Origin: a virus
Reading direction: 5' to 3' (one strand)
Length of the DNA stretch: 33,829 bases
IMG/VR virus record: IMGVR_UViG_3300042907_000731
Span: 1 to 33,829 of that record
The position numbers were made by a program, and so were the translations under genes. The first letter of the stretch is position 1. Every line of letters begins with the position of its first letter. Below, one piece after another: positions 3,335 through 33,138 of the stretch. The notes below the pieces were generated by a model that had not been told where the DNA came from, did not search any database, and worked only from the letters and a program-made list of their open reading frames with translations.

Positions 3335-3337
3335 ATA
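3330..3337 (+). promoter_or_regulatory. Candidate T4-like late promoter (CCTAAATA), leaderless arrangement
   Basis: CCTAAATA overlaps the thyX stop codon and ends exactly 5 nt before the ATG at 3343. T4 late promoters (consensus TATAAATA) occupy about -13 to -6, so transcription would begin on the A of the ATG. It marks the switch from replication genes to virion genes, which are expected to be late. The first two bases differ from the T4 consensus (CC for TA). The same box and spacing recur before 17632, 19981 and 20850. Confidence 0.55.
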
Positions 3338-3342
3338 CGGGG

Positions 3343-8945: not shown

Positions 8946-8986
8946 TCACCTAGTTTAATCGCCTAGATAGAGTGAAAGGCTTTACT

Positions 8987-9202
8987 ATGAACGAACCAAA
9001 TTACAATGAGACTGTTGTGATTCCGTTGCTTCAGAAGAAGTTTCAGGAACTCACCAACGCAAATCTAGTATTGGAGGCTAATCTTCTTGTGGAAAAGGAG
9101 AAAAATGCCTATTTACAAAAGCAGATAGCGTACATTCGTGGCGACACACCACCAAAGAAAAAGAAAAAAGATGACTTGGTGATAGACGGCAACGCTGTCT
9201 AA
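8987..9202 (+). CDS. Small coiled-coil protein between fibre genes (paralogue of 12566)
   Basis: This 71-aa acidic/Lys-rich protein begins MNEPNYNETVVIPLLQKKFQ, has a leucine-rich heptad-like helix (residues ~17-45) and a Lys tract (PPKKKKKDD) near the C-terminus. GAAAGG 7 nt before the ATG at 8987 decides this start; a GTG at 8972 is in frame but has no site. Its N-terminal 35 residues align with the protein at 12566 (shared NET-x-IPLL, then AN-x-x-x-EA-x-LL). Both genes sit just before a fibre gene. It could be a fibre-assembly chaperone, an oligomerisation factor or a minor structural protein; the sequence does not decide. Confidence 0.7.
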   Translation: MNEPNYNETVVIPLLQKKFQELTNANLVLEANLLVEKEKNAYLQKQIAYIRGDTPPKKKKKDDLVIDGNAV

Positions 9203-9210
9203 AATATTTA

Positions 9211-10089
9211 ATGGCACAAATAATCACAAAATATTCAACGACTTCTAGCACTTCGCCAGTTGGCTTGACCACTGGCGAGTTGGCTGTGAATATTTCAGAC
9301 AAAAAACTGTATGTTGGTGGTGCAGCAGGATCGGTAGGATCGGTAAGTCTGTCTGATTCGTATGTAACCTCGTTTAATGGTAGAACAGGTGCAGTTCAGG
9401 GTGTGTCTGCCGCTAACGGACTTACAGGTGCTGTTACATGGGCAGCGGGTACAGGTCTAGATGTTTCTTCTGGTGGTGGAGCCATTACCTACGGAATTGG
9501 TGCGGGATTCGCACTGCTACGCTCTGTTGGAAACACAGCCGCCTTGGATAATATATCTAATCCGAACATTGGTGACTTGGTGTTTGTGCAGGATCGAGGA
9601 ACTTACTACTACTGGGATTACTACGCCGCAGGAGGGACACTCGCGTGGATTAACATTAGTTTAATTTCAAGTGCACTGCAAGGAGATCTGAACGGTGACG
9701 GATCCGTTAATGGTGCAGACCTCGGCATTTTGCTTAATAGTTGGTCTGTACTATCTGGTAGCAATTCCTTGACTATCGGTGTTAAAGACGGCATAACAGG
9801 TGCTTTTAAAATATTTGCAGATGGAAGTGGCAATCCCAAGAAGCAAGACATGGTTGTGGTGTCAACCGAAGGCTTGACATCAGAATTCTCAGTAAACACA
9901 GACGATATTTATCTTACGGGAGTAGTTCATATAAATGGAGAGGGTGAAGAGATTGCACTCGAAGTCTTAAATGGAAGCACTCATGTTGGCAATTTGGTAG
10001 TGGGTTCAGGAATTGATTTATATAGTGGTTTAAATATTATTAGTGGTGGCATATCGGGTGGATTTATAGACGGCGGGACATTTGTATAA
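9211..10089 (+). CDS. Fibre protein with dockerin-like calcium loop
   Basis: This 292-aa protein opens with an Mtd-like attachment module (MAQIITKYSTTS, GLTTGELAVNISDKKLYVGG, residues 1-41) and a SFNGRTGAVQGVSA repeat shared with other fibres. A middle domain is aromatic-rich (DRGTYYYWDYYAAGG, about 130-144). Residues 158-178 read GDLNGDGSVNGADLGILLNSW, the signature of one dockerin type I repeat (Ca-binding loop DxNxDGxVxxxD followed by a hydrophobic helix). The C-terminus ends FIDGGTFV. There is no Shine-Dalgarno; TCTAAAATATTTA precedes the ATG, a degenerate match to the late-promoter box. Likely a tail fibre or adhesin, with the dockerin-like loop giving a Ca-stabilised fold or a protein-protein contact. 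Confidence 0.75.
   Translation: MAQIITKYSTTSSTSPVGLTTGELAVNISDKKLYVGGAAGSVGSVSLSDSYVTSFNGRTGAVQGVSAANGLTGAVTWAAGTGLDVSSGGGAITYGIGAGFALLRSVGNTAALDNISNPNIGDLVFVQDRGTYYYWDYYAAGGTLAWINISLISSALQGDLNGDGSVNGADLGILLNSWSVLSGSNSLTIGVKDGITGAFKIFADGSGNPKKQDMVVVSTEGLTSEFSVNTDDIYLTGVVHINGEGEEIALEVLNGSTHVGNLVVGSGIDLYSGLNIISGGISGGFIDGGTFV
9682..9744 (+). other. Single dockerin type I-like repeat (calcium loop)
   Basis: The segment encodes the dockerin pattern with Asp/Asn ligands at residues D159, N161, D163, S165 and D170, followed by the LGILLNSW helix. Dockerins of cellulosomes normally carry two such repeats; only one is visible here. Confidence 0.7.
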
Positions 10090-10139
10090 TTACCTATATA
10101 GTAACAGCATACTTTACTAGTAACTTTTAAGGACACTAC

Positions 10140-12479
10140 ATGGCAACTCAACTAACTTTCCGCAGAGGCACATCCGAACCAACTCAAGCATCAGGGCTGA
10201 CTCTTGGTGAACCAGCGTTTAATACCGCGCTGAGTACTTTCCATATTGGACGAGGAGCAGGTGTCACGGCTGCTTGGGTTGGTGCACAAATCAGTGGTCT
10301 GTCTACGGGGATTGCTGCGGGACTTACCTTGCAGGTTCCAACCATGTCTGCGGTTAAAGACTATGTTGCAAGCACCACATCTGGTGTTGCCACTCTAAAC
10401 AGTTTAACAGGTGCAGTTACCATTGTTGGTGGCACTAATATTGGAGTTACCAGTGCTAGTGGAAGTATTACTGTTACGAACTTGGGTGTGCGAACCTTTA
10501 ACGGACTCACTGGTGCACTTCAAGGTGTGTCTGCTGCTGTTGCAGGAACAGGCATCTCCGTATCAGGTGCAACAGGCTCTGTTACCATTACAAATATTGG
10601 TGTTCAATCTTTCAACGGAAACACAGGTGCAGTCACAGGAGCATCGCTTGGTGCAAACACCTTTACCGCACTCAACACATTCAACGCAGGTATTAGTGCT
10701 GCTGGTGGTGTGACTTTTGCGGGTGACATTGCAGTCAATGGTGGTGATATCATAACCACAAGTGCTACTGCAACGGTATTCAACACAACTGCAACCACAT
10801 TGAGTATTGGTGGTGCTGCTACTACTTTGGTAATGGGTGCTACTACTGGTGATGCCGCAATACGGAATCCTACTTTGACATTAGGCGATACGGGTGCTGC
10901 TATCATTAAAGCAAAAAATGGAGGACTTCTATTACAATCATCAACTGGCACATCTCCGAGCGGCAGTCTACCAAATATTACAATAGATAATACTGAGAAC
11001 GGTCTTGGTTTTGTAAGTATTATGGGTGGTAATCTATACCTTGGCTATAAACTAGATAATGTTGCCGCGACAACGCCAGTAAATATAGTGTTTGAAGGAG
11101 CAGACACTGACGAATTTGAAACCACATTAACTGTAGACAACCCAACAGCAAATAATACAATCGCCTTACCTAATGCTTCTGGTACTGTTGCACTCACAAG
11201 CCAGTTGATGGGGGCAGTGAACGGCTCAACGGCTGCAACCAATGCAGTGACTTCTTTCAACGGACGCACGGGTGCGGTTACAGGTGCATCACTTGGTGCA
11301 AACACCTTTACTGGACTCAACACATTCAACTCAGGTATAACCACATCGTCCATCTACTCTTCCACAGGATCCACTTTCGGTGGAACTCTGCAAGTAAACG
11401 GTGGAACAACACTTGGTGCACGAGTTGATGTTGGTGGTGTTCTTGAGGTTGCTGGTGGTGTCACAATGGAATCCACTAGTGATCATGCTGGTGCTGCCAG
11501 GTTTGCTTCAACAGTTGTTTCTACAGGTTCAGTAACCGCGAATGGTGGATTGACTGCTTCCACCCTTGATGTGAGTGGTGCTGCTCGTTTGGCTAGTACA
11601 CTTGCTGTTACTGGTATTCTGACACAAACAGGAGGTGCTACCTTTGCATCCACCACTGATCATACGGGTGCTGCCAGATTTGCTTCAACAGTTGTTTCCA
11701 CTGGTTCAGTAACTGCCAACGGTGGATTGACTGCTTCCACACTTGATGTTTCGGGAGCGGCTCGTACCACAGGAGATGTTACTGTTGGTGCAACTCTAAC
11801 AGTCAACGGAAACTTCCAAGTTTACGGAACGCTTACTACTGTTAACCGCACAGACCTAAACATTGACGACAAAACCATCACGATGGGTCGCACCCTTGCA
11901 AATGATGCTCTTGCAGACGGCGGTGGTTTAAGCCTGTCGGGAACTGCTGCTCGTACATGGACATGGAGCAATACTCGTTCAGCATGGGAAAGTAATCAAG
12001 GCGTAAATGTTGCTTCAACTTACGGGTATGCCGTAAACGGTACAAGTGTTCTTACAAGTAATACACTGGGCAGCGGTGTTACTGGTTCTAGTCTTACCAA
12101 AGTTGGAACACTGACAACAGGCGTATGGCAAGCCACAGCGATTGGTGCAACCTACGGTGGTACGGGAATTATTTCATACACCATTGGTGATGTGCTGTAC
12201 GCAAACGGCACAAGTTCTCTTGCTAAACTTACTACTACCACGGCAGGATATCTGCTGTCGGCAAACGGTGCTGGTGCTGCTCCTGAGTACAAGCAGTTGC
12301 TTGTTAAAGACGGTGGCGGAACCTCTATTGCCACGGTCACTTCTGGATCAGGAACTCTTAGTGCTACTATTCAGTATGCCACGGCATCACTCAAGGGAGT
12401 TGCATCGTTTGATAACACTAACTTTACTGTTAGTACTGGAGCAGTTACGATTACAGGAGTAGACGGTGGCACTTACTGA
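10140..12479 (+). CDS. Large modular repeat tail-fibre protein
   Basis: This 779-aa protein starts with an Mtd-like module (MATQLTFRRGTSEP, GLTLGEPAFN, AWVGAQISG, residues 1-55). It continues with repeated blocks: SFNGNTGAVTGASLGANTF occurs twice, VGGVLEVAGGVTMES once, and a 59-aa unit ARFASTVVSTGSVTANGG twice. It then has the block GTLTTVNRTDLNIDDKTITMG, and ends GVDGGTY. It is a paralogue of the product at 6987 over the C-terminal half. AAGGA lies about 7-11 nt upstream of the ATG, and a CTATATAG sequence lies further upstream. Probably a trimeric beta-structured fibre or receptor-binding component; substrate and virion position are unknown. Confidence 0.8.
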   Translation: MATQLTFRRGTSEPTQASGLTLGEPAFNTALSTFHIGRGAGVTAAWVGAQISGLSTGIAAGLTLQVPTMSAVKDYVASTTSGVATLNSLTGAVTIVGGTNIGVTSASGSITVTNLGVRTFNGLTGALQGVSAAVAGTGISVSGATGSVTITNIGVQSFNGNTGAVTGASLGANTFTALNTFNAGISAAGGVTFAGDIAVNGGDIITTSATATVFNTTATTLSIGGAATTLVMGATTGDAAIRNPTLTLGDTGAAIIKAKNGGLLLQSSTGTSPSGSLPNITIDNTENGLGFVSIMGGNLYLGYKLDNVAATTPVNIVFEGADTDEFETTLTVDNPTANNTIALPNASGTVALTSQLMGAVNGSTAATNAVTSFNGRTGAVTGASLGANTFTGLNTFNSGITTSSIYSSTGSTFGGTLQVNGGTTLGARVDVGGVLEVAGGVTMESTSDHAGAARFASTVVSTGSVTANGGLTASTLDVSGAARLASTLAVTGILTQTGGATFASTTDHTGAARFASTVVSTGSVTANGGLTASTLDVSGAARTTGDVTVGATLTVNGNFQVYGTLTTVNRTDLNIDDKTITMGRTLANDALADGGGLSLSGTAARTWTWSNTRSAWESNQGVNVASTYGYAVNGTSVLTSNTLGSGVTGSSLTKVGTLTTGVWQATAIGATYGGTGIISYTIGDVLYANGTSSLAKLTTTTAGYLLSANGAGAAPEYKQLLVKDGGGTSIATVTSGSGTLSATIQYATASLKGVASFDNTNFTVSTGAVTITGVDGGTY
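11417..11465 (+). repeat. 49-bp exact repeat shared with 7772-7820
   Basis: This is the second copy of the exact 49-bp segment found in the fibre gene at 6987. It encodes ARVDVGGVLEVAGGVT. Confidence 0.85.
11491..11763 (+). repeat. Tandem 177-bp fibre repeat units
   Basis: Blocks beginning at 11491 and 11668 encode near-identical stretches (AARFASTVVSTGSVTANGG, then LTASTLDVSGAAR) with a 177-bp (59-aa) period. Differences are mostly at third codon positions. The span covers the first unit and most of the second. Confidence 0.8.
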
Positions 12480-22212: not shown

Positions 22213-22395
22213 TTATTTAGGCTTCATCTTCTTCCTACGAGCAATATTTGATTTGAGTCTTGGGTTGCCAGGCGGCATATCAGGGGGCAAACCTGCAATG
22301 CTGCCGCCTCCTGCGGTGTTTGTGGGTGGCGGCGATGCCATTGGGGGTGGAATTTCTTCGGAAATAAACTTTGAGAATTTTTTGATTGTAGACAT
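22213..22395 (-). CDS. Small Pro-rich phage protein with possible capsid-targeting N-terminus
   Basis: This 60-aa protein starts MSTIKKFSKFISEEIPPP, followed by a Pro/Gly-rich middle (GGGSIAGLPPDMPPG) and a basic C-terminus (ARRKKMKPK). Small proteins of this style are common in marine T4-like phages. The first 13 residues end in FISE, fitting the [LI]xE cut site of the T4 gp21 prohead protease. AAGGA lies 6-7 nt upstream of the ATG. If cleaved, the product would be a basic, Pro-rich packaged peptide. Function otherwise unknown. Confidence 0.62.
   Translation of the reverse strand: MSTIKKFSKFISEEIPPPMASPPPTNTAGGGSIAGLPPDMPPGNPRLKSNIARRKKMKPK
22214..22221 (-). promoter_or_regulatory. Candidate late promoter (CCTAAATA, minus strand)
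   Basis: The box overlaps the stop codon of the 60-aa gene at 22213-22395 and lies 38 nt before the holin-like ATG at 22175. The expected leader of about 33 nt would contain the AAAGG ribosome site. Confidence 0.42.
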
Positions 22396-22403
22396 GGGTT
22401 TCC

Positions 22404-25400
22404 TTAACGACCAATAGGTGTTCCTGAACCTGATACTATACCTGATGCTGGAGAACTCAAAGACGATATTGTATACACAGGAGGAATTGCTGATTTAGTA
22501 ATCAACCAAACTCCACGAGTTCCTTCAATTCCTTTTCGGGAAGTTCCAGGATAAGTATGCTCAGGAACTGCACCACCAGGTATAACAAGTCTGTCTGGTA
22601 TGTCTGCTCTTGCAGTTTGTCCGAGTATAACAGTTTCATATAATCCCATAAGTCCTGGTCGTGCAGTCATTCTCCACAAATATGAACCTGCCATTGGTCC
22701 TCTATTCAGTTGACCACCCGAAGTAAGTACAGGAGAATCGTATGGAAAGGGATTCGTTGTAACACATCTTACGCTGCTGTTTCCACTTATAGTTCTCCAC
22801 GCTTCAAGCACTTTGTGGATAATAATAGTCTGACCATCACCAGCACCGTCTTCACTGGATGCACTAGTACGAAACCATTGCAAATATTTTCCACTAGAAA
22901 GCAGCAGATGATAAGCGTGTTCGTAGAAATATCGGGGATCCATACTCCATTGTTCATGACTGACTTCTTGCCAAGGACCAACAAATGGAGCGTGTCCTTT
23001 TGTTGTCATCCACGGATTGCTACGAAGCATAGCCCGAATTTTTTGCATATCAAACAAGAAGCAGTGATACGAAGAATTACTGGTTGTGTGTTCAATCGTA
23101 AAGGTGGTTCCTGCAACTATTCCGTAATTACTCAATGATTCCAATACTGTTATAAATTTTTTACTACCAGCAGTAATTCCTCCAAGATTATTTCTAACAG
23201 TAAGTGGAACGGGGTTTGTTATGCCACTTGGATTCTGTACCCAAATGTAATCACCTGCAAGAGCAGTAAATCCTCCCCATGCAGTAAATCCAGTGGAAGT
23301 AGATGGAGTTGACTCAACGGTTGCTCCAACAGGAGGAGTCCATATAGTCCCTGTGTTGCCCCATCCAGAACCCTTGTCTCTTTGTGTGTCTGAACCATTA
23401 TATCCAGTACCAGCAAGTCCTATTGCTGTTTTTGGATAAAACTTTCTGCGTCCATTAGGCATGATATAATAGTCTACCGCACCATTGCCCATAGGCAGTC
23501 CTGCCACACTTGAAATATAATTAGCGTAGTCTCCTACTGAATATGTTTGTCCGTTCAGGCAATGCTTTTCAGCATTGGTCGTAGGATTTGGAACAAATCC
23601 ACTGTATAGTGCTGGATTTGTACTACCACCAAGTGCATTACCGTACATGGTAACAGAATTAATAGTTTTTTCTCCTGTTAACGACATCTGTATTTCTGGT
23701 CCTAGATTTGCGTCTACTGCAAATTCCATATTATCTGCATCAGCATTTCCTGTTCCGTACATATTGTATATTATACCAGCACTCATTCCATCAGAATATG
23801 CAATAGAACGATAGTGTCCCCAATACCATTCTGCAACGGTTTGATCCCATGCAAGCCATATCAGATAGTGATTAAAATTATTTATTGATCTTGCTTGATA
23901 TCCCAAAATACCAGAACCCCGTTCGGTAGCAAAATATGGAAAATTGGGTGTTGCACCAAAGGCTGCTGCTCCATGAGCATAAACAATATCCACAGCATGA
24001 GATAGTCCTATCATGGGAGTAGCACCTTGTGCCGTGACTCCTGTTACATTCCACCGCTTACACATCTTTCCGTATATTTCCATGAATCTAGACGGGAATG
24101 TGGGGGAATCTGCGGTAGTTATTCCGCTTGTGGAGAACTGATATGTGGCAATGCGTGGATCACTTATCAATGCACGCAGCATTTCTGGATCAGCCCTGTT
24201 TACTAGTTTACTTTTTCTACTAGATCCAGAAGCGGATATTCCGTAATAGTCATATAAGAATTCAGAAGTAACACCAGATACTCCAAGTGCGCGATCTGGA
24301 TCTGTTCCTGCAACAAATGCACCACTGGCTATTCCCGAATTTGTAATTACTTTATATTTAGTTGAAGTTCCCAGGTGGTACAGCGACATTGTTCCTGGAG
24401 CATTTTCGGAATCATCTTGAAAAATACCTGGTGTTACACCAGCAGCACCCAATGCACGAACAAGTTCATTCACAGCAATGCGTTTATCGTTTGCTTGTTC
24501 ATCCGAAATAAGACCTAGTATTCGTCTGCTTGCAGGAAAGGTTGCTCCGCTATATGTGGTTCCTGTTGAGTAAAGATGACCATTAATACTTTCAGCGGCT
24601 ACTGTAAATCCTGCATTTGTTACACCAGTGGGATAATGTACGCTGGTGTATGTAAACCCATCTCTAATAGCATAATGTTGTACAAGTCTTTCGCGTTGAT
24701 CACTAGTAGTTACGGGAAGTATTCTGCAAGTAGAGCGAAACTCTACCATGCGTCTGGATTGTGGAACATTTTTTATGACTTTTGCCCATGCAGCAACACT
24801 TCCACCAAGCAATCCCGTTTCATTAATATATGTTGTACCCAAATCTCTTTGCATTACTCCCGAAAAATATCCAGAAGTTGCTCCAATATAAGTGCTTAGT
24901 ATTGGAACCATAGATTTTTTTCCTGGCACATATCCTAATTCACCCGCCTGATTTATTAGTGTTTGATTTCCATCTACTCCATCTACCCAAGCCCAATGCG
25001 ATCCGTACACATCGTAATCAAGATTGTTTATTGGTTCGGAAAGAGTGTATGGACTGTTCAAGTAGAACGACTGCCCTTGCAGCACCTCACCAAACACCAT
25101 AAAGTGAATGCGCTCGGTGAGTCCGCTTTGGTAGATTACACCCTGCTGTGTCCACGAGTTGTCCGCAGGGTTTTGCTTTAGTGATTCAACACGGAATCCT
25201 GAAGTAGTTTTGTACTTGTTGTTTAGTCCTGCGCGAATCAACAACAGGGAGAACTCAGGAGTTGCCGCAGTAAGATTAGTTTCGGTGTTGGACTCGTACT
25301 CACCCGTTAGTATGGTGCAGTAGGTGTTCGATGTCATGGGAGTCACAAACGAAACATCAAACAAGGAGTTTGCTCCTGCTGATACGCCTTTCACATTGAA

Positions 25401-26537
25401 TCCGTTTTCAATGTACGCGCTTACCGTGCTGCTGTTACCTTTGTTTGGTGGAATCACAATTGTTCCGTATGCCACTGCCTTGCGCTTGTCTGCTTTATTA
25501 AACAGAGAAGACGAGTAGGTGTTCCCCACCGTGCCAAAGCCTCCCGCACCAGGAACAAGCCGCTTGCGTGCGTCTTGGTTGCCTTTAGTACCAGTATAAG
25601 TAATTGGTTGTGTTCCAATTGGAGTAGAAACAAACTCCGTCACTAGGCTTCCTGGTTCTAGTTGTGCTCCCGCAATATAGTATCTGGCAGAAGCAGATGT
25701 GGCTGTGCCGCCCAATCCAGAGGCTAGACTGCCCTGTAGCCCAAGTTGAATTCCTTCTACGCTGGTACCAGTTATTTGAGTACCCGTGATAGAATATCGT
25801 TTCCAAGTATTAGTGAGTGTGAGCAGTGTTTTGCTACCGCCAACACTTCTAATGAATATCTGCTCTCCGCCTATCTCTCCCTTTATAAAAATGCTTGATG
25901 TCCACGGTGTTGATTTGAACCAAGCAGGAGTAGCAGCCGATTGAATTGCTACAGCAGTGACAGCATTGGCGGCAATATTTACGCTTTGGTTAACTTGATA
26001 CGAATTGGGTATTCCTATTGGACCTGGCACTCCACTAGGAGGGAAGGTAGAAAGAGTACTGTCCACTATCCAATTTCCAACTTCTGGAGCACGCAGATTA
26101 TTTTCTGTGGCAAGTGCAAACACTGCCACATTAGATCGAACTGCATACTCTTTGGCTGAGTCTCCTATGGTAGCAGTTCCGCCACCTGGATGAAATCCTG
26201 AGTAATTAAAGTTTGCTACTCGTATTCCTGCGGACTTGCCCTTGTCGGTAGCATTAAAAAAGTCTTCACCATTTTTTAAGATCTGCGGTCCGTATCCTGC
26301 ATCGTAACCAACTTCGGGTGTACAAATCGTAACATACGCCCCACCGCCGAACTGTTCAGGATTGGAAAATGAAATTCCGTACACTCCTGCACTTACTCGA
26401 TGGGTTCCCAAAATACCGTAACCATCGTTCACCGTGGGAGCCTTGTCCGTGTCGTACTGCATATTGATCCACGCATCACAGGTGGGAACAGTAGTAGTAG
26501 AAGAAGTAAATTGTGCTGCTGAACGAGAAGAAGTCAT
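22404..26537 (-). CDS. Giant virion adhesin, possible carbohydrate-binding and enzyme-like domains
   Basis: This 1377-aa protein overlaps the upstream gene by ATGA. Residues ~1-110 form a beta domain (AWINMQYDTDKAPTVNDGYG, with GVYGISFSNPEQF). Residues ~155-308 resemble a carbohydrate-binding-type jelly-roll (WTSSIFIKGE, TNTWKRYSITGTQ, YYIAGAQLEPGSLVTEF). Residues ~355-455 carry another beta domain (ENGFNVKGVSAG, FDVSFVTPMTSNTY) related to the 157-aa upstream product. The last ~850 residues form an unrecognised domain with many Trp/Tyr, IFQDDSE at 705-711, and YFYEHAYHLLLSSGKYLQWF near residue 1220. This could be a TIM-barrel-like glycan-active domain, but I cannot confirm it. It is probably a receptor-binding or glycan-degrading virion protein. 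Confidence 0.7.
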   Translation of the reverse strand: MTSSRSAAQFTSSTTTVPTCDAWINMQYDTDKAPTVNDGYGILGTHRVSAGVYGISFSNPEQFGGGAYVTICTPEVGYDAGYGPQILKNGEDFFNATDKGKSAGIRVANFNYSGFHPGGGTATIGDSAKEYAVRSNVAVFALATENNLRAPEVGNWIVDSTLSTFPPSGVPGPIGIPNSYQVNQSVNIAANAVTAVAIQSAATPAWFKSTPWTSSIFIKGEIGGEQIFIRSVGGSKTLLTLTNTWKRYSITGTQITGTSVEGIQLGLQGSLASGLGGTATSASARYYIAGAQLEPGSLVTEFVSTPIGTQPITYTGTKGNQDARKRLVPGAGGFGTVGNTYSSSLFNKADKRKAVAYGTIVIPPNKGNSSTVSAYIENGFNVKGVSAGANSLFDVSFVTPMTSNTYCTILTGEYESNTETNLTAATPEFSLLLIRAGLNNKYKTTSGFRVESLKQNPADNSWTQQGVIYQSGLTERIHFMVFGEVLQGQSFYLNSPYTLSEPINNLDYDVYGSHWAWVDGVDGNQTLINQAGELGYVPGKKSMVPILSTYIGATSGYFSGVMQRDLGTTYINETGLLGGSVAAWAKVIKNVPQSRRMVEFRSTCRILPVTTSDQRERLVQHYAIRDGFTYTSVHYPTGVTNAGFTVAAESINGHLYSTGTTYSGATFPASRRILGLISDEQANDKRIAVNELVRALGAAGVTPGIFQDDSENAPGTMSLYHLGTSTKYKVITNSGIASGAFVAGTDPDRALGVSGVTSEFLYDYYGISASGSSRKSKLVNRADPEMLRALISDPRIATYQFSTSGITTADSPTFPSRFMEIYGKMCKRWNVTGVTAQGATPMIGLSHAVDIVYAHGAAAFGATPNFPYFATERGSGILGYQARSINNFNHYLIWLAWDQTVAEWYWGHYRSIAYSDGMSAGIIYNMYGTGNADADNMEFAVDANLGPEIQMSLTGEKTINSVTMYGNALGGSTNPALYSGFVPNPTTNAEKHCLNGQTYSVGDYANYISSVAGLPMGNGAVDYYIMPNGRRKFYPKTAIGLAGTGYNGSDTQRDKGSGWGNTGTIWTPPVGATVESTPSTSTGFTAWGGFTALAGDYIWVQNPSGITNPVPLTVRNNLGGITAGSKKFITVLESLSNYGIVAGTTFTIEHTTSNSSYHCFLFDMQKIRAMLRSNPWMTTKGHAPFVGPWQEVSHEQWSMDPRYFYEHAYHLLLSSGKYLQWFRTSASSEDGAGDGQTIIIHKVLEAWRTISGNSSVRCVTTNPFPYDSPVLTSGGQLNRGPMAGSYLWRMTARPGLMGLYETVILGQTARADIPDRLVIPGGAVPEHTYPGTSRKGIEGTRGVWLITKSAIPPVYTISSLSSPASGIVSGSGTPIGR

Positions 26538-27007
26538 ATTACCACCACCCTTATCTGAATAAGAGAATTAGACTCAAATGTTACGGCACGAACTTGGTTC
26601 CCATTCCCAGTAGCCAAGCCAACATTTCGCTTGGGAGTACCCAATCGTATCCAAAATGAAGTGGTTAGTTTTGGAAATTGGGTTGAGTTTAGTGCGTGAG
26701 TATATACTGGAATACTCGTACCAGCATTGTGTAGAAATTCAGCCTGTATAAAAATTTTATATTTGGTGTCCCGCATGGGAGTAATAAAAGAAAACTTTAG
26801 TGCCTTACCCAAGACATCACTAGCACCTGGAGAGATATGGTTAGACGGATCCAAACGAAGGTTGTATCCGTCTACGAAATTTGCACTATCCCACCTGTTG
26901 GTGGGTACGGCACCACTGAATACAGGAAGATGCGACACACCCGTATGACACCACGCCTTCACGGTGCTGTTTTGTGCAAAGAATGGAAGTTGCGGTGAGT
27001 TTGCCAT
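26534..27007 (-). CDS. Beta-sandwich structural protein, partner of the giant adhesin
   Basis: This 157-aa protein starts MANSPQLPFFAQNSTVKAWC. The segment KALKFSFITPMRDTKYKIFI (about residues 68-87) resembles a domain seen in tail proteins where an AW-x-x-F-N strand is followed by a Y-x-V-x-F-x-x-PM strand. The same arrangement occurs within the 1377-aa product immediately downstream. Start and stop both overlap neighbours (TAATG upstream, ATGA downstream), giving tight coupling. Likely a structural or adaptor subunit for the adhesin. Confidence 0.65.
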   Translation of the reverse strand: MANSPQLPFFAQNSTVKAWCHTGVSHLPVFSGAVPTNRWDSANFVDGYNLRLDPSNHISPGASDVLGKALKFSFITPMRDTKYKIFIQAEFLHNAGTSIPVYTHALNSTQFPKLTTSFWIRLGTPKRNVGLATGNGNQVRAVTFESNSLIQIRVVVI

Positions 27008-27390
27008 TACAATTGCCTCAGAATCTGTGCTAGTTTGCCGTCCATCGGGATGTCCGAGACTACGATGCCGTCAAAAATCATCCGCTCATCTATGTATTCC
27101 AAATACAGGAGAACGGTCTTCAGTGCAGGGTAGATGTCCGCTTCCAATTTGTGAAACAGCATACGAGACGCTGCCGCACGACCAAACACATTCCCAAGCA
27201 CCATGATGTGGTTCAGGAGAAGAATGGTTCGCAAAGTGCCGCAGCGGTTATACCGCTTCAGCAACCGCTTTACATATTTGATTTTTGAAATATCTTCCAA
27301 GAATTCATCCATCCCCATGCAATCAGGATTCGTGTAGTTTCCCATTGCATAGAGAGAGAAGTTGTCTTTGGTCAATATATTAATGTCCAT
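27007..27390 (-). CDS. Conserved hypothetical protein of marine T4-like phages
   Basis: This 127-aa, mostly helical protein has the pattern NFSLYAMGNYTNPDCMGMDE, FLEDISKIKYVKRLLKRYNR and LLLNHIMVLGNVFG. I recognise the pattern from memory as a small conserved family in T4-like cyanophages and relatives, of unknown function. Its neighbours are virion genes, so a minor structural or assembly role is plausible. There is no good Shine-Dalgarno upstream; the start lies 15 nt after the preceding stop. No metal-binding or catalytic motif is evident. Confidence 0.68.
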   Translation of the reverse strand: MDINILTKDNFSLYAMGNYTNPDCMGMDEFLEDISKIKYVKRLLKRYNRCGTLRTILLLNHIMVLGNVFGRAAASRMLFHKLEADIYPALKTVLLYLEYIDERMIFDGIVVSDIPMDGKLAQILRQL

Positions 27391-27405
27391 GATAAAAGTA
27401 TTCGC

Positions 27406-28683
27406 TTACCAGCGCATACCGTACTTGTTTAGTCTGTCTTTAATTGCATGACTTTTAGCACTTTGTTCTGCTCCACCTGGTAGTGTAGTCCGCTTCTTCA
27501 TAGTCTTCTTTGGGGTCTTTGCGGCTTCATCCACAACCTTCTTGATGCGCTTGGTTCCCTTGCCGCTTTGATCAGCAATGTTTGATCCAAGAGCAGGATC
27601 CATGATTGGAAGACCTGTGGTGAATTCTGTGGTTACATCTTCCTTTACAGACTTCTTGGAGCGAAGCATCTTGAAGTCTTGCGAGTCAAGCCGCTTGTTC
27701 TTGTTCGCATCAAGTTTCTTCTGACCGCCAACAAGTTCTTCCTTTACAGACTTCTTGGATCGAAGCATCTTGAAGTCTTGCGAGTCGAGACGCTTGTTCT
27801 TGTTTGCATCCAATTTCTTCTGACCGCCAACAAGTTCTTCCTTGACACCCATAGCCGTCTTGATGCCCTTCACAGCATTGGCTTGCTTTTTGCCCGTGAG
27901 CGAATTGTAGTTCTTGTCGGAACCGTACTTCATGGACGACAGTTGTGATCCACGCTTGGCAACATACGCGTCCTTGGTCGCCTTGCTCAACTCGTCAATC
28001 TGCTCTGCGCCTTCCTTCACTTCCACGCCTTCTTCAGCCATCACAGGCTCTTCCTTTGGTGAAACAAAAGCGGTTACACGGTACATGGAGTCATCGCCCA
28101 ATTCAACTTTAACGGTAAGCGTGAACTCTTGGAATCCGTCTTGGCTACCTGCACGACCATCAAAGCGAATTCCGCCAGTCAGTGCATCGTATCCATCAAC
28201 ACGACCAAAGCGTGTCAGTGGAAGAGTAAACACACCAACCACAGAACTGTTTTCTCCTGGTGCAGCAGGTGGAACCTGTGCGTATCCTGACCACACCCGT
28301 GGTGTCCACGGGAAGTCAAGCAACAGCACATTGAGTCGTGCACGAATCTTCACCAGTGCATCGGTGGTATTCAAGTACGAGTACTTTGAAAGAGCATTAA
28401 GCATGGCATTGGCGTTGGCAATGAACTGTGCATTGAACTTGAATGCTCCAACATCAGTATCAAGCGAACGATTAGGATAGCCTGTAAGGGTTTCCTTGTA
28501 CTCGCTCTCGTTGAGTGTGTTACGGAACGCTTTGAATTGTTTGGTTTCTTTCATGTGCTTTGCCTTTGAAATTTCGATGGCAGCCAGTTGCTTCTGTGCC
28601 TTCTCTTTGGATGGGTGGGTTCCTAGAATCTTGGAACCTGTAGAATCAGTGACTACGAATTTGCTTCCGCTTTTCTTTATCAT
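27406..28683 (-). CDS. Virion-associated protein with duplicated EF-hand-like repeat
   Basis: This 425-aa protein has four parts. Residues 1-43 are a small phage module (KFVVTDSTGSKILGTHPSKE, then KQLAAIEISK). Residues 44-59 (MKETKQFKAFRNTLNE) resemble a capsid-targeting peptide ending in LNE. Residues ~65-210 are a beta-rich domain (FKFNAQFIANANAM, then LLDFPWTPRVWSG). The C-terminal half is Lys-rich and carries two 33-aa repeats, each with an EF-hand-type loop (DANKNKRLDSQD at 292-303 and 325-336). No ribosome site precedes the ATG at 28683, whereas AAAGG lies 8 nt before M44 (28554). A 382-aa product from 28554 is therefore plausible. Probably a prohead or internal structural protein; function unknown. 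Confidence 0.7.
   Translation of the reverse strand: MIKKSGSKFVVTDSTGSKILGTHPSKEKAQKQLAAIEISKAKHMKETKQFKAFRNTLNESEYKETLTGYPNRSLDTDVGAFKFNAQFIANANAMLNALSKYSYLNTTDALVKIRARLNVLLLDFPWTPRVWSGYAQVPPAAPGENSSVVGVFTLPLTRFGRVDGYDALTGGIRFDGRAGSQDGFQEFTLTVKVELGDDSMYRVTAFVSPKEEPVMAEEGVEVKEGAEQIDELSKATKDAYVAKRGSQLSSMKYGSDKNYNSLTGKKQANAVKGIKTAMGVKEELVGGQKKLDANKNKRLDSQDFKMLRSKKSVKEELVGGQKKLDANKNKRLDSQDFKMLRSKKSVKEDVTTEFTTGLPIMDPALGSNIADQSGKGTKRIKKVVDEAAKTPKKTMKKRTTLPGGAEQSAKSHAIKDRLNKYGMRW
27641..27838 (-). repeat. Two tandem 99-bp coding repeats (EF-hand-like)
   Basis: Two adjacent 99-bp copies (27641-27739 and 27740-27838) differ at only a few, mostly silent positions and encode the same 33 residues (KEELVGGQKK, LDANKNKRLDSQDFKMLRSK). 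The start of a third copy (KEELV/KEDV flanks) is visible. This points to recent tandem duplication. Confidence 0.9.
28563..28567 (-). promoter_or_regulatory. Internal ribosome binding site (AAAGG) for an alternative start at 28554
   Basis: AAAGG sits inside the reading frame, 8 nt before an in-frame ATG (minus strand, 28554-28552). The upstream start at 28683 has no comparable site. Initiation here would place the capsid-targeting-like peptide at the extreme N-terminus. Confidence 0.5.
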
Positions 28684-28686
28684 GGT

Positions 28687-30132
28687 TTAGTCTGTTGTTG
28701 TGGTTGAACGGTAGTCTGCATCACCTGAGCGGCGGCGTTGACTCGTCTTGGTGTCTTTGGTGCGCCGATCCTTTGCCCATTCCATCTTTTTGCCTTTTCC
28801 CATACGAGCCATTGGATTTGTTGATCCACGAGCAGGTGGAATAGGCTTGCGAAGTTCTTCGGCGTGTTTGGCGTAGTCTGCCTTTAGACCCTGAAGTTTT
28901 GCAGTAACCCCACTCGCTTCATTCACTTTCTTCTTGACGATAGGTCTTTCTATTTTTCTCGCGTGTTTCAAATCGGCTTTTAATTCTCGATCCTTGAGTT
29001 GATTTGAAGTACTATTTTTTGGGTTGTATTTCAAATCTGGATGTTCTTCAGCGGTTCTTTTGTCTGATGGTTTACCCATCATTTTAATTAAGTCAACTCT
29101 TCTCATTCTTGCGTGTGCGATCTTAGAATCCCTAAGTCCTTTACTTGAATAATCATCTTCATCAGTAACACGATTGGCATCACTTGTTGCTTTACTCTTA
29201 ATTTTGTCCAACGCGGCTCTTCTTGCAGGAGTAATTCTATAGATTTCAGTAACCTCACTGGCTTCTTTCACTGGCTTTGGCTTTGGCATCTTTTCGGATT
29301 CCATTTCATCGCGCAGTTTACGAGCCTTCTCTCGCGCAGTAGCATTTTCCTTTGGACTCTTGCGGTTCATGGTGGTCATGTATTCGTTGAGTTCATTCTG
29401 AAGCGCAAAGAATGTTTTTCCTTCGCTCACACTTTTCCAATCGCCGCCTTGTTCGTTGTACCACTTAACAGCCCAACCGTTGGCGTAGGCAGAAGGGTAC
29501 ACATCAAACTTTGCACGAGCCTTGGATTTTGCTTGTGACCACAGTTCAGGATTTGTTGGCTTGTTCTTTTCCATTAGTTCTTGTGCGGCTTCAACCAAAC
29601 CAAACTCGTCCATGCTTTCGGTGTTTGGTGTCTCGAATGATTCCTCAACAGTTTCTCCACCAAGAGTCTTGCGGAAAGCGTTGAACAGAACAGGTGATCC
29701 TGTAATCTTCTTTACCATTGAGTCCATCATGTCAATCATGAGGTCGCGATACACTTTGGATGCACCCATCTTGATGGCTGTCTCAGGAGACTGCAAAGCG
29801 CGGCGAGCCACGATTACATCCTTTTTCTTTACAAGACCACTACGAAGCAGGGTCTTCGTGCGTTCGCCTTCAACACTTTCGGTGGTGATGTTTGATTCCT
29901 TGGACAGACTAGTGCGGAGAGCGGTGTACAGGTTGCGGTTATTCAGTACACGATCCACCACATCCACAAGAATTTCCTGCATAAGCATACGGTATGCGGG
30001 ATTCTTCATTGCCTTGTCGGGGTCTTGGAACAGAACCGCTGCACGGCGAATGTTGTTCTTGGAAACAAGACCAAGCCGCAGCAAGGTGTTGAGTTTCGAT
30101 GTGATTCCGCTATCGTGTCCGATTCCGTCCAT
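28687..30132 (-). CDS. Helical basic phage protein with an internal duplication
   Basis: This 481-aa protein has two related ~65-residue helical units at its N-terminus. Unit 1, residues 14-77, has TLLRLGLVSKNNIRRA, ILVDVVDRVLNNRNLY and TALRTSL. Unit 2, residues 92-158, has TLLRSGLVKKKDVIVA, LMIDMMDSMVKKITGS and NAFRKTL. A middle segment (LWSQAKSKARAKFDVYPSAY, then ANGWAVKWYNEQGGDW, about 198-233) is a small domain I recall from many T4-like phage proteins. The C-terminus is long, Lys/Arg-rich and probably disordered. GGGAG lies 8 nt before the ATG. Composition suggests a DNA-associated or prohead-internal protein, but no catalytic motif is seen. Confidence 0.65.
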   Translation of the reverse strand: MDGIGHDSGITSKLNTLLRLGLVSKNNIRRAAVLFQDPDKAMKNPAYRMLMQEILVDVVDRVLNNRNLYTALRTSLSKESNITTESVEGERTKTLLRSGLVKKKDVIVARRALQSPETAIKMGASKVYRDLMIDMMDSMVKKITGSPVLFNAFRKTLGGETVEESFETPNTESMDEFGLVEAAQELMEKNKPTNPELWSQAKSKARAKFDVYPSAYANGWAVKWYNEQGGDWKSVSEGKTFFALQNELNEYMTTMNRKSPKENATAREKARKLRDEMESEKMPKPKPVKEASEVTEIYRITPARRAALDKIKSKATSDANRVTDEDDYSSKGLRDSKIAHARMRRVDLIKMMGKPSDKRTAEEHPDLKYNPKNSTSNQLKDRELKADLKHARKIERPIVKKKVNEASGVTAKLQGLKADYAKHAEELRKPIPPARGSTNPMARMGKGKKMEWAKDRRTKDTKTSQRRRSGDADYRSTTTTD

Positions 30133-30151
30133 TGTAGAGTCTCCCTTTTCC

Positions 30152-31204
30152 TTATTTAGACGATTTCAAGTGGCTAGTCATGCGGGGGGCGTTTCCTTTT
30201 CCGCTTTGCTGTGTTTCTGGTTCAACTCGTCTTTTTTGAATTACAGCGCGTTTTCTCTCTTTGGGAGTCATCTCTCCCACCGTCTCAGGGGTCTTGCTGC
30301 TTACTTTGTTTAGGGGACGGCATTTAGGGTATTTACCCTTGGAGGTGTCAGAGCGACCACATGGGGGGTACTCCCCTGTCTTGGGGTCTTTCTTGCCGCC
30401 AATGTCCACCCACTTCTCCTTGAACCACTGCGAAAGGTCTTCATCCATTTTACATGGAGGCGTGGGAAATATTTTATTGTGCTTGGAGAATCCCCCTGTT
30501 TGACCAGGAGTATCGGCTCTTCGCTTTTTCTTGTCGCTTTCAAGCAGTCGCTCTGCGGCGGCACGGTAAATATCTGTGTAGTTGATGCCTTCTTTAATCA
30601 TCGTTTTCATGCCCCGTTGTAGATCTTGGTACAAGTCTTTAACATCAGAAGCATTGGCTTGGCGGGGCATTCCGCTCTTGAAAGTCTTGAAGTCGTTTGC
30701 GGCAGCAGCAGCACGAAGTTTGGACGCGCTCATGCCCTGCACACCTGTTGCGTTCTCGTCTCGCTTTCCTGCACCCACAATCGTCAGGCTCTTTAGTTTA
30801 AGGCGGTCTTTCCTGCGAGTGGAACTCATCAGGTCTTTGAAAGCCTCGTATTGTCCTTGGCGATCTTCTCCACCAACGAGATGCACATGATCGTATCCCT
30901 TTTCGGCAAGCCAGTACAGCATCTCCACAGGGTTCTTGATTGTGTTCAAGTCCTTGAAGTTTGCGTCAGGAAAGAACCGCTTCAGGTACTTGAACTTTTG
31001 TCGGGGGGTGAGTGGATTCTTCTTGGGGTCGTTTGTGCGACTGCTGAACATTGCGTACTCTGCGCCCAAACTCTTTGCCGTGCTAATGACCTTATCGACT
31101 AGCAGTTGGTGACCTGATGTGGGGGGTTGAAAGCGACCAAAGGCAACAACGATAGACTTGCCTTTAGTCTTGGGTTTAGCAATATCCCGAACTTTTTTTT
31201 CCAC
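30152..31204 (-). CDS. Nucleotidyltransferase (HxGH/ISxTxxR superfamily) fused to a Cys-rich phage tail domain
   Basis: This 350-aa protein begins with a Rossmann-like nucleotidyltransferase domain: AFGRFQPPTSGH (residues 21-32, HxGH-type with Thr first), HLVGGEDRQGQY (108-119) and GMSASKLR (157-164, the ISxTxxR counterpart). This is the NMN adenylyltransferase/cytidylyltransferase superfamily, which transfers a nucleotidyl group from NTP; the acceptor is not predictable here. The C-terminal third has KEKWVDIGGKKDPKTGEYPP and CGRSDTSKGKYPKCRP, a small Cys-containing domain common in marine T4-like phages. I place the start at the GTG at 31204, with GAGG 8 nt upstream. The GTG at 31213 would have its site abutting. 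Neighbours are a ligase-like protein and virion genes. Confidence 0.78.
   Translation of the reverse strand: MEKKVRDIAKPKTKGKSIVVAFGRFQPPTSGHQLLVDKVISTAKSLGAEYAMFSSRTNDPKKNPLTPRQKFKYLKRFFPDANFKDLNTIKNPVEMLYWLAEKGYDHVHLVGGEDRQGQYEAFKDLMSSTRRKDRLKLKSLTIVGAGKRDENATGVQGMSASKLRAAAAANDFKTFKSGMPRQANASDVKDLYQDLQRGMKTMIKEGINYTDIYRAAAERLLESDKKKRRADTPGQTGGFSKHNKIFPTPPCKMDEDLSQWFKEKWVDIGGKKDPKTGEYPPCGRSDTSKGKYPKCRPLNKVSSKTPETVGEMTPKERKRAVIQKRRVEPETQQSGKGNAPRMTSHLKSSK
30153..30160 (-). promoter_or_regulatory. Candidate late promoter (TCTAAATA, minus strand)
   Basis: The box overlaps the stop codon of the nucleotidyltransferase gene and lies 20 nt before the ATG at 30132. A leader of about 15 nt would retain the GGGAG site. 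Confidence 0.42.
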
Positions 31205-31246
31205 TGTGATCACCTCTTTATTGTTACACCAGACACCAACTGCCAG

Positions 31247-32455
31247 TCAAGGTTTATTCCAAGTCTTTTCTGTGGTCAGATTGCTGCGTGAAAAATCCAA
31301 TCGGTCTACCAATTTAACTGCATTGTTGCTCAAGCGGTCGATTGCAACAAATCCTTCAGGAGTAGTAACTCGGTATCCGCTCTTGTCCTTGATAAAGGTT
31401 CCTACGCCTGTTTGCATGGAAGCCATCTTCTGAACAATTGTGAGTTTCAACTGAGCCAGTGCATTATGTAGTGCAAAAACACGAGCAAGTTGGTTTCTGT
31501 TGTTGCGAACCCAATCAATTGATGGAGTAGTTTTTGTGCTTGCTACTTTGCGTTTGCCTTGTGCGCGTTCAAGCATGAATTGCAGGAGTTGATTCACATC
31601 AGCATGAGAAGTAGCAACTCCTCCACGCACCAATCCGTTGATGTAGGTTTTGATGTCTATTTTAACTCCCTCGTTCTTGCCAATGCCGTTCAAGACAACA
31701 CGCAAGTCAGCAGCAGTCTTGGTAAGACTAGCAATAGAGTTTTCAATTGTGCTGCGTTCCGATGGGGAGAATAGTCCTGATCCGTTTGCAAACTTCATTG
31801 TGGCGTTATCAAACCAGACATCCTTTACTTTTTTCATGTAACTAATATCGGGATTGAATCGTGCAGTCATGGTGGCGATTGATTCGCCCTCGTATGCGGT
31901 ATGAAACACAATACCAATTTTTGCTGCTGCCATGCGTGTTCCCAAATCACTTTTTGGATCCACGGCGTATTTGATTGTGTTGGGCTGAAAAGTAAGGTAA
32001 CTCTTGCCGTCAATGAGTTCCCGCTGTTTTGATTCCCCATCGAACATCATGTCGCCTTGCAGCACACCACGAATACCAAGTTTGGAAAAATGCTTTAGCG
32101 CAAGTTTAAGTTTTAAGTTCAATCCCTCTACGGGATGGTTCGCATCAATATCTGAATTGGTAAAGTTCAATTTGGGAGTCACATTGAACACACCCTTTGT
32201 GCCAACAAAAAATCGACCGCTTTGGGGGTCGATTCCACAAATAATGGCGGGTGCGCCATCCCACTTTACCGTGATGTCGTATGCACTAGGCGCGTTTGCT
32301 GTGAGAGCCTCCACAACGCCCCGTAAAGCCTTTATGGCGCGTCCGAACCCTGCGTAGCCGCTGTTGAGGATCTCGTCCTCAAGATGCTCCAAATGGACAT
32401 TCTTTCCACTTGATTTTTTAAATGCTTCGACTAGGTGTTCGGTAAATGCTCTCAT
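31247..32455 (-). CDS. Ligase-superfamily-like protein (KWDG motif), possibly packaged
   Basis: This 402-aa protein belongs to a family I recall from T4-like marine phages (DUF6267-like). VKWDGAPAIICG (63-74) resembles motif I (KxDG) of covalent nucleotidyltransferases, which include DNA/RNA ligases and capping enzymes, with K64 as candidate nucleotidyl-Lys. GVLQGDMMFDG (130-140) and IGIVFHT (180-186) may correspond to motifs III and IV. HLEHLEDEILNSGYAG (21-36) is family-typical. Its N-terminus MRAFTEHLVE|A closely parallels the T4 internal-protein capsid-targeting peptide MKTYQEFIAE|A, including length and [LI]xE|A. AGGAG lies 4 nt upstream of the ATG. Activity is unproven. The C-terminal half is helical and unrecognised. 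Confidence 0.72.
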   Translation of the reverse strand: MRAFTEHLVEAFKKSSGKNVHLEHLEDEILNSGYAGFGRAIKALRGVVEALTANAPSAYDITVKWDGAPAIICGIDPQSGRFFVGTKGVFNVTPKLNFTNSDIDANHPVEGLNLKLKLALKHFSKLGIRGVLQGDMMFDGESKQRELIDGKSYLTFQPNTIKYAVDPKSDLGTRMAAAKIGIVFHTAYEGESIATMTARFNPDISYMKKVKDVWFDNATMKFANGSGLFSPSERSTIENSIASLTKTAADLRVVLNGIGKNEGVKIDIKTYINGLVRGGVATSHADVNQLLQFMLERAQGKRKVASTKTTPSIDWVRNNRNQLARVFALHNALAQLKLTIVQKMASMQTGVGTFIKDKSGYRVTTPEGFVAIDRLSNNAVKLVDRLDFSRSNLTTEKTWNKP

Positions 32456-32472
32456 AATTCTCCTGTGCTTCT

Positions 32473-33138
32473 CTATTTAGAAGCATAGGAGTTCCGCTCG
32501 GAGCGGTAGAACTTGATTGCATCTGCCAAATCTGCAATATATTCCCGTGGATCGGCTGTAAACACCTGACAGCCACCTTGTTCCACACCAATCAGAATGG
32601 CAATATTTCGGAGTTCCACTCCTGTGCGATCCTGCCACATAAGCGAATACGCCGTGGCTTGCATGAAGTAGTCTTGGATTGCGTCTTCGCTTTTCGGATA
32701 TGTGGAAGACTTAAAGTCGATAACCGACGGCTTGTCATCAAAAAATCCAATGCAGTCCGTCCTTCCCGCCAATCCCACACGCTTCGACCACAGCGGAACT
32801 TCGATAGCGTGGATCGTGCCGATGCGGTCGATAGACTCCTGCATTTCGAAAAATAGGTCGGACTCACAAGTCCCCGCATTCGTCTGTACGGAACTGTGAT
32901 CGTTTTTGAGATACGACTCGATAATTGAGTGAAGTTTCGTGCCACGGCTAAGTACTCTCTTTGATTCTTCGGGGTTTTCTCGCCGCCACTTGGCAAAGAA
33001 GGCTCGCTTCTTCCATCCCGTAACGGTGGTAACAGAGGGAAAAACGCCATCAGGGGTCTGATAGCGTCTGCCGCCGTCTGTGTCTACGCTGTTTACATTT
33101 TCGTTTAGCGTCACTAATTCATGATGAAAGGTTTTCAT
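32473..33138 (-). CDS. PD-(D/E)XK exonuclease (RecB/Cas4/MGME1-like)
   Basis: This 221-aa nuclease shows the PD-(D/E)XK core: H70 with E74 in RGTKLHSIIES, E113 in HAIEVPLWS, D128 in GRTDCIG, D141-x-K143 in VIDFKSS, and the Q160/Y164 motif in FMQATAYSLMW. Such enzymes degrade or process DNA ends. Similar phage proteins are annotated as RecB-like or MGME1-like exonucleases. The start directly follows the upstream stop (TAA then ATG). The N-terminus MKTFHHELVTLNE begins like the T4 capsid-targeting peptide (MKTY) and contains LNE, a possible prohead-protease site, so the enzyme may be packaged. No tandem helicase domain is present. Confidence 0.82.
   Translation of the reverse strand: MKTFHHELVTLNENVNSVDTDGGRRYQTPDGVFPSVTTVTGWKKRAFFAKWRRENPEESKRVLSRGTKLHSIIESYLKNDHSSVQTNAGTCESDLFFEMQESIDRIGTIHAIEVPLWSKRVGLAGRTDCIGFFDDKPSVIDFKSSTYPKSEDAIQDYFMQATAYSLMWQDRTGVELRNIAILIGVEQGGCQVFTADPREYIADLADAIKFYRSERNSYASK
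32474..32481 (-). promoter_or_regulatory. Candidate late promoter (TCTAAATA, minus strand)
   Basis: The box overlaps the TAG stop of the nuclease gene and lies 18 nt before the ATG at 32455, with AGGAG between. The arrangement matches the boxes at 13080 and 30153. Confidence 0.42.

Follow-up and report, generated by a model that had tools for sequence, protein, structure and literature searches.

We found that a ligase-like protein and a 60-residue protein encoded by a virus record of 33.8 kb begin with a segment resembling the capsid-targeting sequence (CTS) of phage T4 internal proteins. The stretch analysed, hereafter the window, covers positions 1 to 33,829 (33,829 nucleotides) of IMG/VR virus record IMGVR_UViG_3300042907_000731. 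It represents part of the genome of an uncultured phage related to T4. Its plus strand carries T4-type genes, and a block of minus-strand genes runs from position 33828 down to about 21425. The window is probably part of a T4-type internal-protein system, in which the ligase-like protein (family DUF6267) and the 60-residue protein would be CTS-tagged, processed by the protease gp21 and injected. An original prediction, made from the letters of the window, had proposed a packaged set that also included a PD-(D/E)XK nuclease and an EF-hand-like protein. The four N-termini it quoted are all present in the sequence, on the minus strand, the one from the EF-hand-like protein being internal at codon 44.

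The CTS rule comes from T4. The first ten residues of IPIII are enough for targeting, residues 4 and 7 being important for targeting and residues 8 and 10 for cutting; gp21 cuts after L/I-X-E, and T4 core proteins are likewise cleaved (PMC9026906). The site of action of the internal proteins is the cytoplasm of the host, and IPI and IPIII aid against host defences (PMC9391042). The sequence MKTYQEFIAE|A, to which the ligase-like N-terminus had been compared, opens two T4 open reading frames (ORFs), and the comparison stands. We take these two ORFs to be IPII and IPIII. The corresponding features of the window are:

31247..32455, minus strand: ligase-like protein of 402 residues (PF19782 DUF6267, 334 bits; phrog_455; KWDG at residues 64–67)
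32426..32455, minus strand: tag MRAFTEHLVE, codons 1–10 of the ligase-like protein, with a predicted gp21 cut after Glu10

The start of the ligase-like protein, MRAFTEHLVE|A, fits all four key T4 positions with F4, H7, L8 and E10. Across an alignment of 14 homologues, M1, F4, H7 and E10 are invariant and L8 is nearly so, positions 2, 3, 5, 6 and 9 vary, and the conserved domain begins at about residue 17. The targeting pair and the cleavage site occurred in order in 20 of 21 N-termini that were distinct over their first 20 residues, and 86 of 88 distinct N-termini were tagged in a larger set reaching down to 42.5% identity, in which the tag recurred with replaced letters (MKFTEFLTEA, MINYQDYLTES, MKSFQTFLNEA). 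The count of 86 of 88 allowed the choice of start codon to favour the pattern; under each of two start rules blind to the tag, 62 of 65 were tagged. When the pattern-favouring rule was applied to the adjacent nucleotidyltransferase, 3 of 39 were tagged, a few of these being truncated frames. Because DUF6267 homologues share ancestry, the 86 tagged N-termini are not 86 independent events. These counts indicate that the predicted DUF6267 tag exceeds chance and bear out the capsid-targeting-like N-terminus that had been proposed for this protein.

The 60-residue protein, the second proposed carrier for which the tag stood, lies at the far end of the same block:

22213..22395, minus strand: 60-residue proline-rich protein with a basic C terminus, starting MSTIKKFSKFISE (homologue N-termini)
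22357..22395, minus strand: predicted tag, codons 1–13 of the 60-residue protein (homologue N-termini)

All 16 distinct N-termini of its family contain an F..F aromatic pair and an [LIVMF]xE site, and 15 of the 16 have both parts in order with shifted spacing; the strict [LI]xE form is present in just 7 of 16. The tag predicted on this protein also exceeds chance. We trained a tag profile on the DUF6267 tags and applied it to the proteins of the window. The scores were 18.8 for the ligase-like protein (whose own family is the training set), 12.6 for the 60-residue protein, 6.9 for the internal start of the EF-hand-like protein and −3.8 for the nuclease, all remaining proteins falling below 0. 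T4 gp61.1 (NC_000866 18966–19130, 54 residues) has a tag-like start, MKTFKEFIKE|D. We rejected the 60-residue protein as its kin: a family profile search of 35,559 reading frames from 15 records recovered the family's own copies in the records G001 and G002, and the next match, the T4 frame opening at 19142 that encodes gp61.1, was not significant (E 0.13).

G001 (IMG/VR contig 3300042868_005520, 113 kb) is a close relative used for comparison. Stretches of the window match its positions 44164–74075 at 79–98%, its DUF6267 protein is 99% identical to that of the window, and its sequence extends past the window's right edge. The gp21-like protease expected elsewhere in the genome is present in G001. 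PF03420 (gp21) was found in 4 of 10 records, namely G001, G002, HTVC008M and Melnitz-3; the other six are fragments 32–59 kb long. In a second set, 8 of 11 records contained it, the exceptions being T7, N4 and P1. We then counted starts fitting a fixed-spacing pattern (^M..[FYLI]..[FYHIL][LIVMF].E) in each whole record against shuffled N-termini. Observed versus expected counts were 7 versus 0.25 in G001 (Poisson 1e-8), 4 versus 0.12 in G002, 5 versus 0.22 in S-CREM2, 5 versus 0.65 in S-CRM01, 5 versus 0.70 in T4, 2 versus 0.33 in Melnitz-3 and 2 versus 0.65 in S-SCSM1, and the whole records of T7, N4 and P1 contained no such start. A looser rule gave 9 of 143 ORFs in G001, 5/101 in G002, 3/229 in S-PM2, 2/195 in Syn1, 1/106 in P1, 1/69 in N4 and 0/43 in T7. 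Judged by sequence, the window's relatives thus show a strong excess of predicted tags.

Much of this excess in G001 comes from six consecutive tagged genes at 79433–84341, 5–10 kb past the position of the window's right edge, which begin MKSFSQILNE, MKAFRQHLQE, MIDFRSYLTE, MKAFRSYITE, MNSFRQHLRE and MIPFRQYISE. Further tagged N-termini, which the original prediction had suggested looking for, were thus found in G001. The row includes an HNH-domain protein (25.6 bits, cut-off 24.8), whose G002 counterpart has an additional polynucleotide-kinase-like match, and related small proteins, the tagged families there being phrog_6387-like. Distinct homologue N-termini kept the fixed pattern in 21 of 26 cases for the HNH query, 23/28 for a 159-residue, 22/27 for a 166-residue and 7/10 for a 169-residue protein, with overlap among these four homologue sets; the figures were 9/13 for a 245-residue protein, in whose family tag letters are substituted while the remainder is constant, and 3/3 for a 282-residue protein. 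For an S-adenosylmethionine (SAM) lyase of G001 (PF23780, 41.8 bits), none of 26 homologue N-termini fitted the fixed pattern, but 25 of the 26 start MKKF[TS]Q[YF][LI], and the 18 distinct N-termini of that type have an LxE site some five residues further on. Some predicted tags, those of the SAM lyase family and the 60-residue protein, thus have shifted spacing.

Tagged proteins from this gene neighbourhood have been reported from purified virions of four cyanophages. The S-CREM2 virion yielded 52 proteins; four of them are enzymes with neither a structural nor a lytic role, namely a SAM hydrolase, an APH-like kinase, a cytidylyltransferase and a Cas9-like nuclease (PMC10665884). We found the starts MKDFDSFLEE in the SAM hydrolase, MKRFDAFLTE in the kinase and MKNFSSFLTE in the cytidylyltransferase, and that the SAM hydrolase belongs to PF23780 (70.1 bits), the family of the tag-like G001 SAM lyase. 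The Cas9-like protein, gp12 (7704–10313 of the examined stretch), has FASFMAE|A at residues 19–25, after a short lead, and ranks 215 of 219 when the profile is applied at the usual tag positions. A strict regular expression matched 4 of 28 detected non-structural proteins versus 3 of 167 undetected ones (Fisher p 0.0089; p 0.057 for all 52 detected), and a looser one matched 5/28 versus 12/167 (p 0.076). Of the 28, the DUF6267-trained profile ranked 9 among the 15 best of 219 (p 7.6e-6), this cut having been picked after the ranks were known; these nine include the endolysin gp209, which has no real tag.

The corresponding gene of the window neighbours the ligase-like gene:

30152..31213, minus strand: NMNAT/cytidylyltransferase-like protein with C-terminal DUF5872 (phrog_3041, phrog_395, PF19197)

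This protein is untagged in the window and tagged in cyanophages. Homologues reported from virions were tagged in 4 of 4 cases: besides S-CREM2, these are the S-SZBM1 cytidylyltransferase, which begins MRFRQFIIE|A (PMC9146016), S-SCSM1 NMNAT ORF91, which begins MKSFLQFLKE|A (PMC9602691), and S-SM1 T4-GC190, with the gene start MKKFSAFLNE|A (PMC3037559). That study reports that T4-GC190 was not detected in S-PM2 (PMC3037559), and the S-PM2 nucleotidyltransferase frame is fused to part of DUF6267 and lacks a tag. DUF6267 is untagged and its partner tagged in S-CREM2, S-SZBM1, S-SM1, S-CRM01, Syn9 and S-SCSM1.

Several observations weigh against assigning the window to a T4-type internal-protein system. 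The gp21 gene was not found in the 33.8 kb of the window itself, and some gp21-bearing phages had no excess of fixed-pattern tags (KVP40 2 versus 0.68, HTVC008M 1 versus 0.41, Syn9 1 versus 0.48, Syn1 1 versus 0.45, S-PM2 0 versus 0.52). The presence of gp21 is therefore not in itself a sign of abundant tags. Neither partner is tagged in Syn1 or S-PM2, and neither fits the pattern in HTVC008M. DUF6267 itself was not reported from any virion in the papers examined; its untagged forms in S-CREM2 (gp87) and S-SZBM1 (141) are missing from the virion tables, as are the tagged S-SZBM1 proteins 191 and 192. Over the full S-CREM2 list the profile separated detected from undetected proteins weakly (area under the curve 0.593, p 0.057); many of the 28 resemble tail or fibre proteins, so no tag would be expected on those. 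The authors of the virion studies also caution that enzymes may be carry-over (PMC10665884, PMC9602691).

The tag on the ligase-like protein, together with the tags on rows of proteins in its relatives, suggests that these phages probably inject ready-made enzymes with their DNA. During head assembly the tag would dock to the prohead core through the aromatic-type residues 4 and 7, and a gp21-type protease would cleave after [LI]xE, which in DUF6267 is after Glu10. The mature protein would be retained in the head and enter the host with the DNA, where, minutes after infection begins, DUF6267 and its partner would probably repair, adenylate or otherwise modify nucleic acids, or act on nucleotides (NAD/ATP), for example to restore them. 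One alternative is that packaging and processing do take place but the tagged proteins act within the head, in the core, as scaffold or in DNA packing. The 60-residue protein, which is tiny and proline-rich with a basic tail, suits a core or DNA-contact role, and in T4 the core proteins also undergo cleavage (PMC9026906). We nevertheless regard this alternative as unlikely, as DUF6267, HNH, SAM lyase, kinase and nucleotidyltransferase proteins are enzyme-like with no evident head role, and the T4 internal proteins work in the host cytoplasm (PMC9391042).

It is somewhat less probable still that the motif at the N terminus resembles a CTS by coincidence and serves as a helix for structure or interaction. 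This segment of DUF6267 is predicted to be helical, albeit at low model confidence, and the homologues share ancestry. A coincidental helix fits poorly with the pattern of conservation, in which the conserved columns are the residues important in T4 while their neighbours vary. Unrelated families also have the same motif with replaced letters, the whole segment is missing from cyanophage DUF6267, and tagged proteins of other families were found in virions.

The inclusion of the nuclease in the injected set, as originally proposed, is very unlikely:

32473..33138, minus strand: PD-(D/E)XK nuclease of 221 residues, starting MKTFHHELVTLNE (PF12705, 29.3 bits, cut-off 22; phrog_298, E 5e-53)

In favour of it, a single strand carries all four genes in a span of less than 11 kb, and F4 and an LNE site are present in the nuclease of the window. 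Among its 27 homologues, however, [LIVMF]xE was present in 19, the targeting pair in 1 and both in order in none, and relatives begin MKTFDHAFVELND, MKSFVHEFIDVGCD and MFNHDIVKIEDN. The tag-like segment is part of the exonuclease family start, and cyanophage members of this family often adjoin phoH or a late-transcription gene. Homologues in S-CREM2 (gp196) and S-SZBM1 (S-SZBM1_78), which match the nuclease at phmmer E 3e-25 and 1.5e-37, respectively, are not among the proteins of those phages' virion tables. We therefore rejected the nuclease as tagged cargo. The packaged-set idea survives in part, through the tags on the ligase-like and 60-residue proteins and the tagged neighbourhood proteins in cyanophage virions, but not for the nuclease. 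That such short motifs simply arise by chance in any phage genome, as the single matches in Syn1, Syn9 and HTVC008M, no more than expected, and the loose-rule hits in N4 and P1 might suggest, is scarcely credible given the G001 count and the conservation of the tag across families, and is contradicted for DUF6267 and the 60-residue protein.

The standing of the EF-hand-like protein as a putative tagged member is ambiguous:

27406..28683, minus strand: EF-hand-like protein of 425 residues (phrog_3684; a Dockerin-type match is below its cut-off)
28507..28554, minus strand: internal tag-like motif MKETKQFKAFRNTLNE, the start site in many relatives

The motif starts at codon 44 (position 28554), not at the ORF start, and the DNA upstream of the internal methionine, ...TTTCAAAGGCAAAGCAC, contains at best a weak ribosome site. 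Six of 13 distinct N-termini of relatives begin at the motif, where they read MSExKRFKAFRSELNES; the rest start upstream with an MIKK segment, like the protein in the window. We found no phmmer match at E 0.01 between this protein and a tagged 131-residue Melnitz-3 protein, and rejected that kinship. Two further candidates were also rejected as tagged, both parts of the tag being in order in 0 of 13 distinct N-termini for a 481-residue protein and 0 of 21 for a DUF7207 protein. Kinship of the 481-residue protein with S-CREM2 gp160 was likewise rejected (no phmmer match at E 0.01). Using PADLOC, we found matches of the nuclease to Cas4-type, Cas1g and DruK entries and of the HNH protein to a homing endonuclease, and no match for the other six proteins submitted.

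The KWDG motif of the ligase-like protein, named in the original prediction, holds across the family: K64-W-D-G, which contains the KxDG lysine of motif I, is invariant in 46 sequences, as are Q-G-D135, H185-T, E367-G and K381. These residues follow one another as motifs I to V do in ligases, with Asp at the place of the motif III Glu. An AlphaFold2 model from the 46 sequences reached a predicted local distance difference test score (pLDDT) of 83.9 and a predicted TM score of 0.78, residues 1–22 being below 50; a shallow alignment gave a poor model (pLDDT 50.9). PDB sequence searches with both alignments found nothing better than E 0.31 and 1.1. VIA-align, run on Foldseek's first 1000 chains, put the RNA ligase of Naegleria at the top of its list (Z 7.8, 4.1 Å over 183 residues), followed by T. 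brucei REL1 (7.5), T4 Rnl2 (6.9), Trl1 (6.9), T4 Rnl1 (6.7) and DNA ligases (5–6). Among the best 50 of 228 chains with Z of at least 2, 44 titles name a ligase, and the other six are a ligation or non-homologous end-joining complex, 'Pmar-Lig' or incomplete titles. Telling against a ligase fold, plain Foldseek against PDB returned no chain with an E value as low as 0.001, its top rows being carbonic anhydrases (TM 0.07) and its first ligase ranking 25, and every VIA-align Z was below 8, the level that the program calls decisive. The modelled fold thus appears closest to RNA ligases, at moderate scores, and seems to resemble them more than DNA ligases.

The NMNAT/cytidylyltransferase-like protein is probably a working partner of DUF6267, to judge from gene organization, because the two form one chain in some phages and one or the other carries the tag in many. 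The best viral match to the DUF6267 protein is a 591-residue S-PM2 protein named cytidyltransferase-like, phrog_455 spans both DUF6267 and the nucleotidyltransferase, and the two share one reading frame at S-PM2 103007–104801. Among the matches listed for the window's DUF6267, the best is from Methylophilales phage Melnitz-3, followed closely by cyanophages and Pelagibacter phage HTVC008M. The DUF6267 protein of Melnitz-3, an isolate that has gp21, is itself tagged (INFSKYITE|D). Beside the same locus, a Melnitz-3 protein (10914–11999 of the examined stretch) begins MQGFKTFLSE|A, and S-SCSM1_90 (959–2293 of the examined stretch) is annotated as a virion protein. The two S-SCSM1 'virion proteins' just before the nucleotidyltransferase were ruled out as DUF6267, whose homologue lies at 221388. 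A bolder and distinctly tentative possibility is that DUF6267 is a virion-borne RNA ligase that, with its NMNAT-like partner, would reverse nucleic-acid or NAD damage inflicted by host defences before phage expression. The tag would then be a portable label, shifting between the partners and appended to a whole series of effectors (HNH, SAM lyase and small proteins); a portable tag on many effectors would make the injected arsenal readable from sequence across T4-like aquatic phages.

Compared with T4 IPI–IPIII and Alt, the system described here shares a tag of ten residues, the four key positions within it and, in the window's close relative, a gp21-family protease; it differs in its RNA-ligase-like cargo (and HNH, SAM lyase and other proteins in relatives) and in the shifted spacing of some tags. 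With the cyanophage virion enzymes (NMNAT/cytidylyltransferase, SAM hydrolase, APH-like kinase and Cas9-like protein) it shares gene neighbourhood, PF23780 and tagged starts, whereas DUF6267 is untagged there and the text of the S-CREM2 paper names no targeting tag, being without the terms 'capsid targeting', 'propeptide' and 'internal protein' (PMC10665884). The ejection proteins of the giant phages phiKZ and SPN3US are likewise head-loaded and cut after Glu by a gp21-related protease, but SPN3US propeptides are mostly longer than 100 residues (PMC5694885, PMC9026906), whereas tags of the window type span 10–16, as in T4. The Naegleria, T. brucei REL1, T4 Rnl2 and Rnl1 RNA ligases resemble DUF6267 at Z 6.7–7.8 and in the order of conserved motifs, and differ from it in that identity is about 10% and DUF6267 has a large inserted helical part.

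The CTS mechanism is already known from T4. The capsid-targeting literature that we found concerns, by titles and abstracts, T4, giant phages, P1, P22 and T4-based vectors, and a full-text search that covered few subscription journals or preprints did not find DUF6267 by name. Within the reach of these searches, the extension to these phages and this cargo has not been described. The mechanism worked out in T4 would thereby apply to T4-like phages whose hosts are Synechococcus, Methylophilales or uncultured, and an RNA-ligase-like protein becomes a candidate for injection. Whether the cyanophage virion enzymes are cargo or carry-over was left open in the papers; a conserved tag offers a sequence rule for cargo and makes the question testable through one kind of N-terminal peptide. 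The tag would also single out DUF6267 and the small proteins of the tagged row as effectors that act in the first minutes. Elsewhere in the window, among tail-fibre-like genes, we noted a 591-residue reading frame with long collagen-like G-x-y repeats (3229–5004), the annotated start of which overlaps a thyX-like gene.

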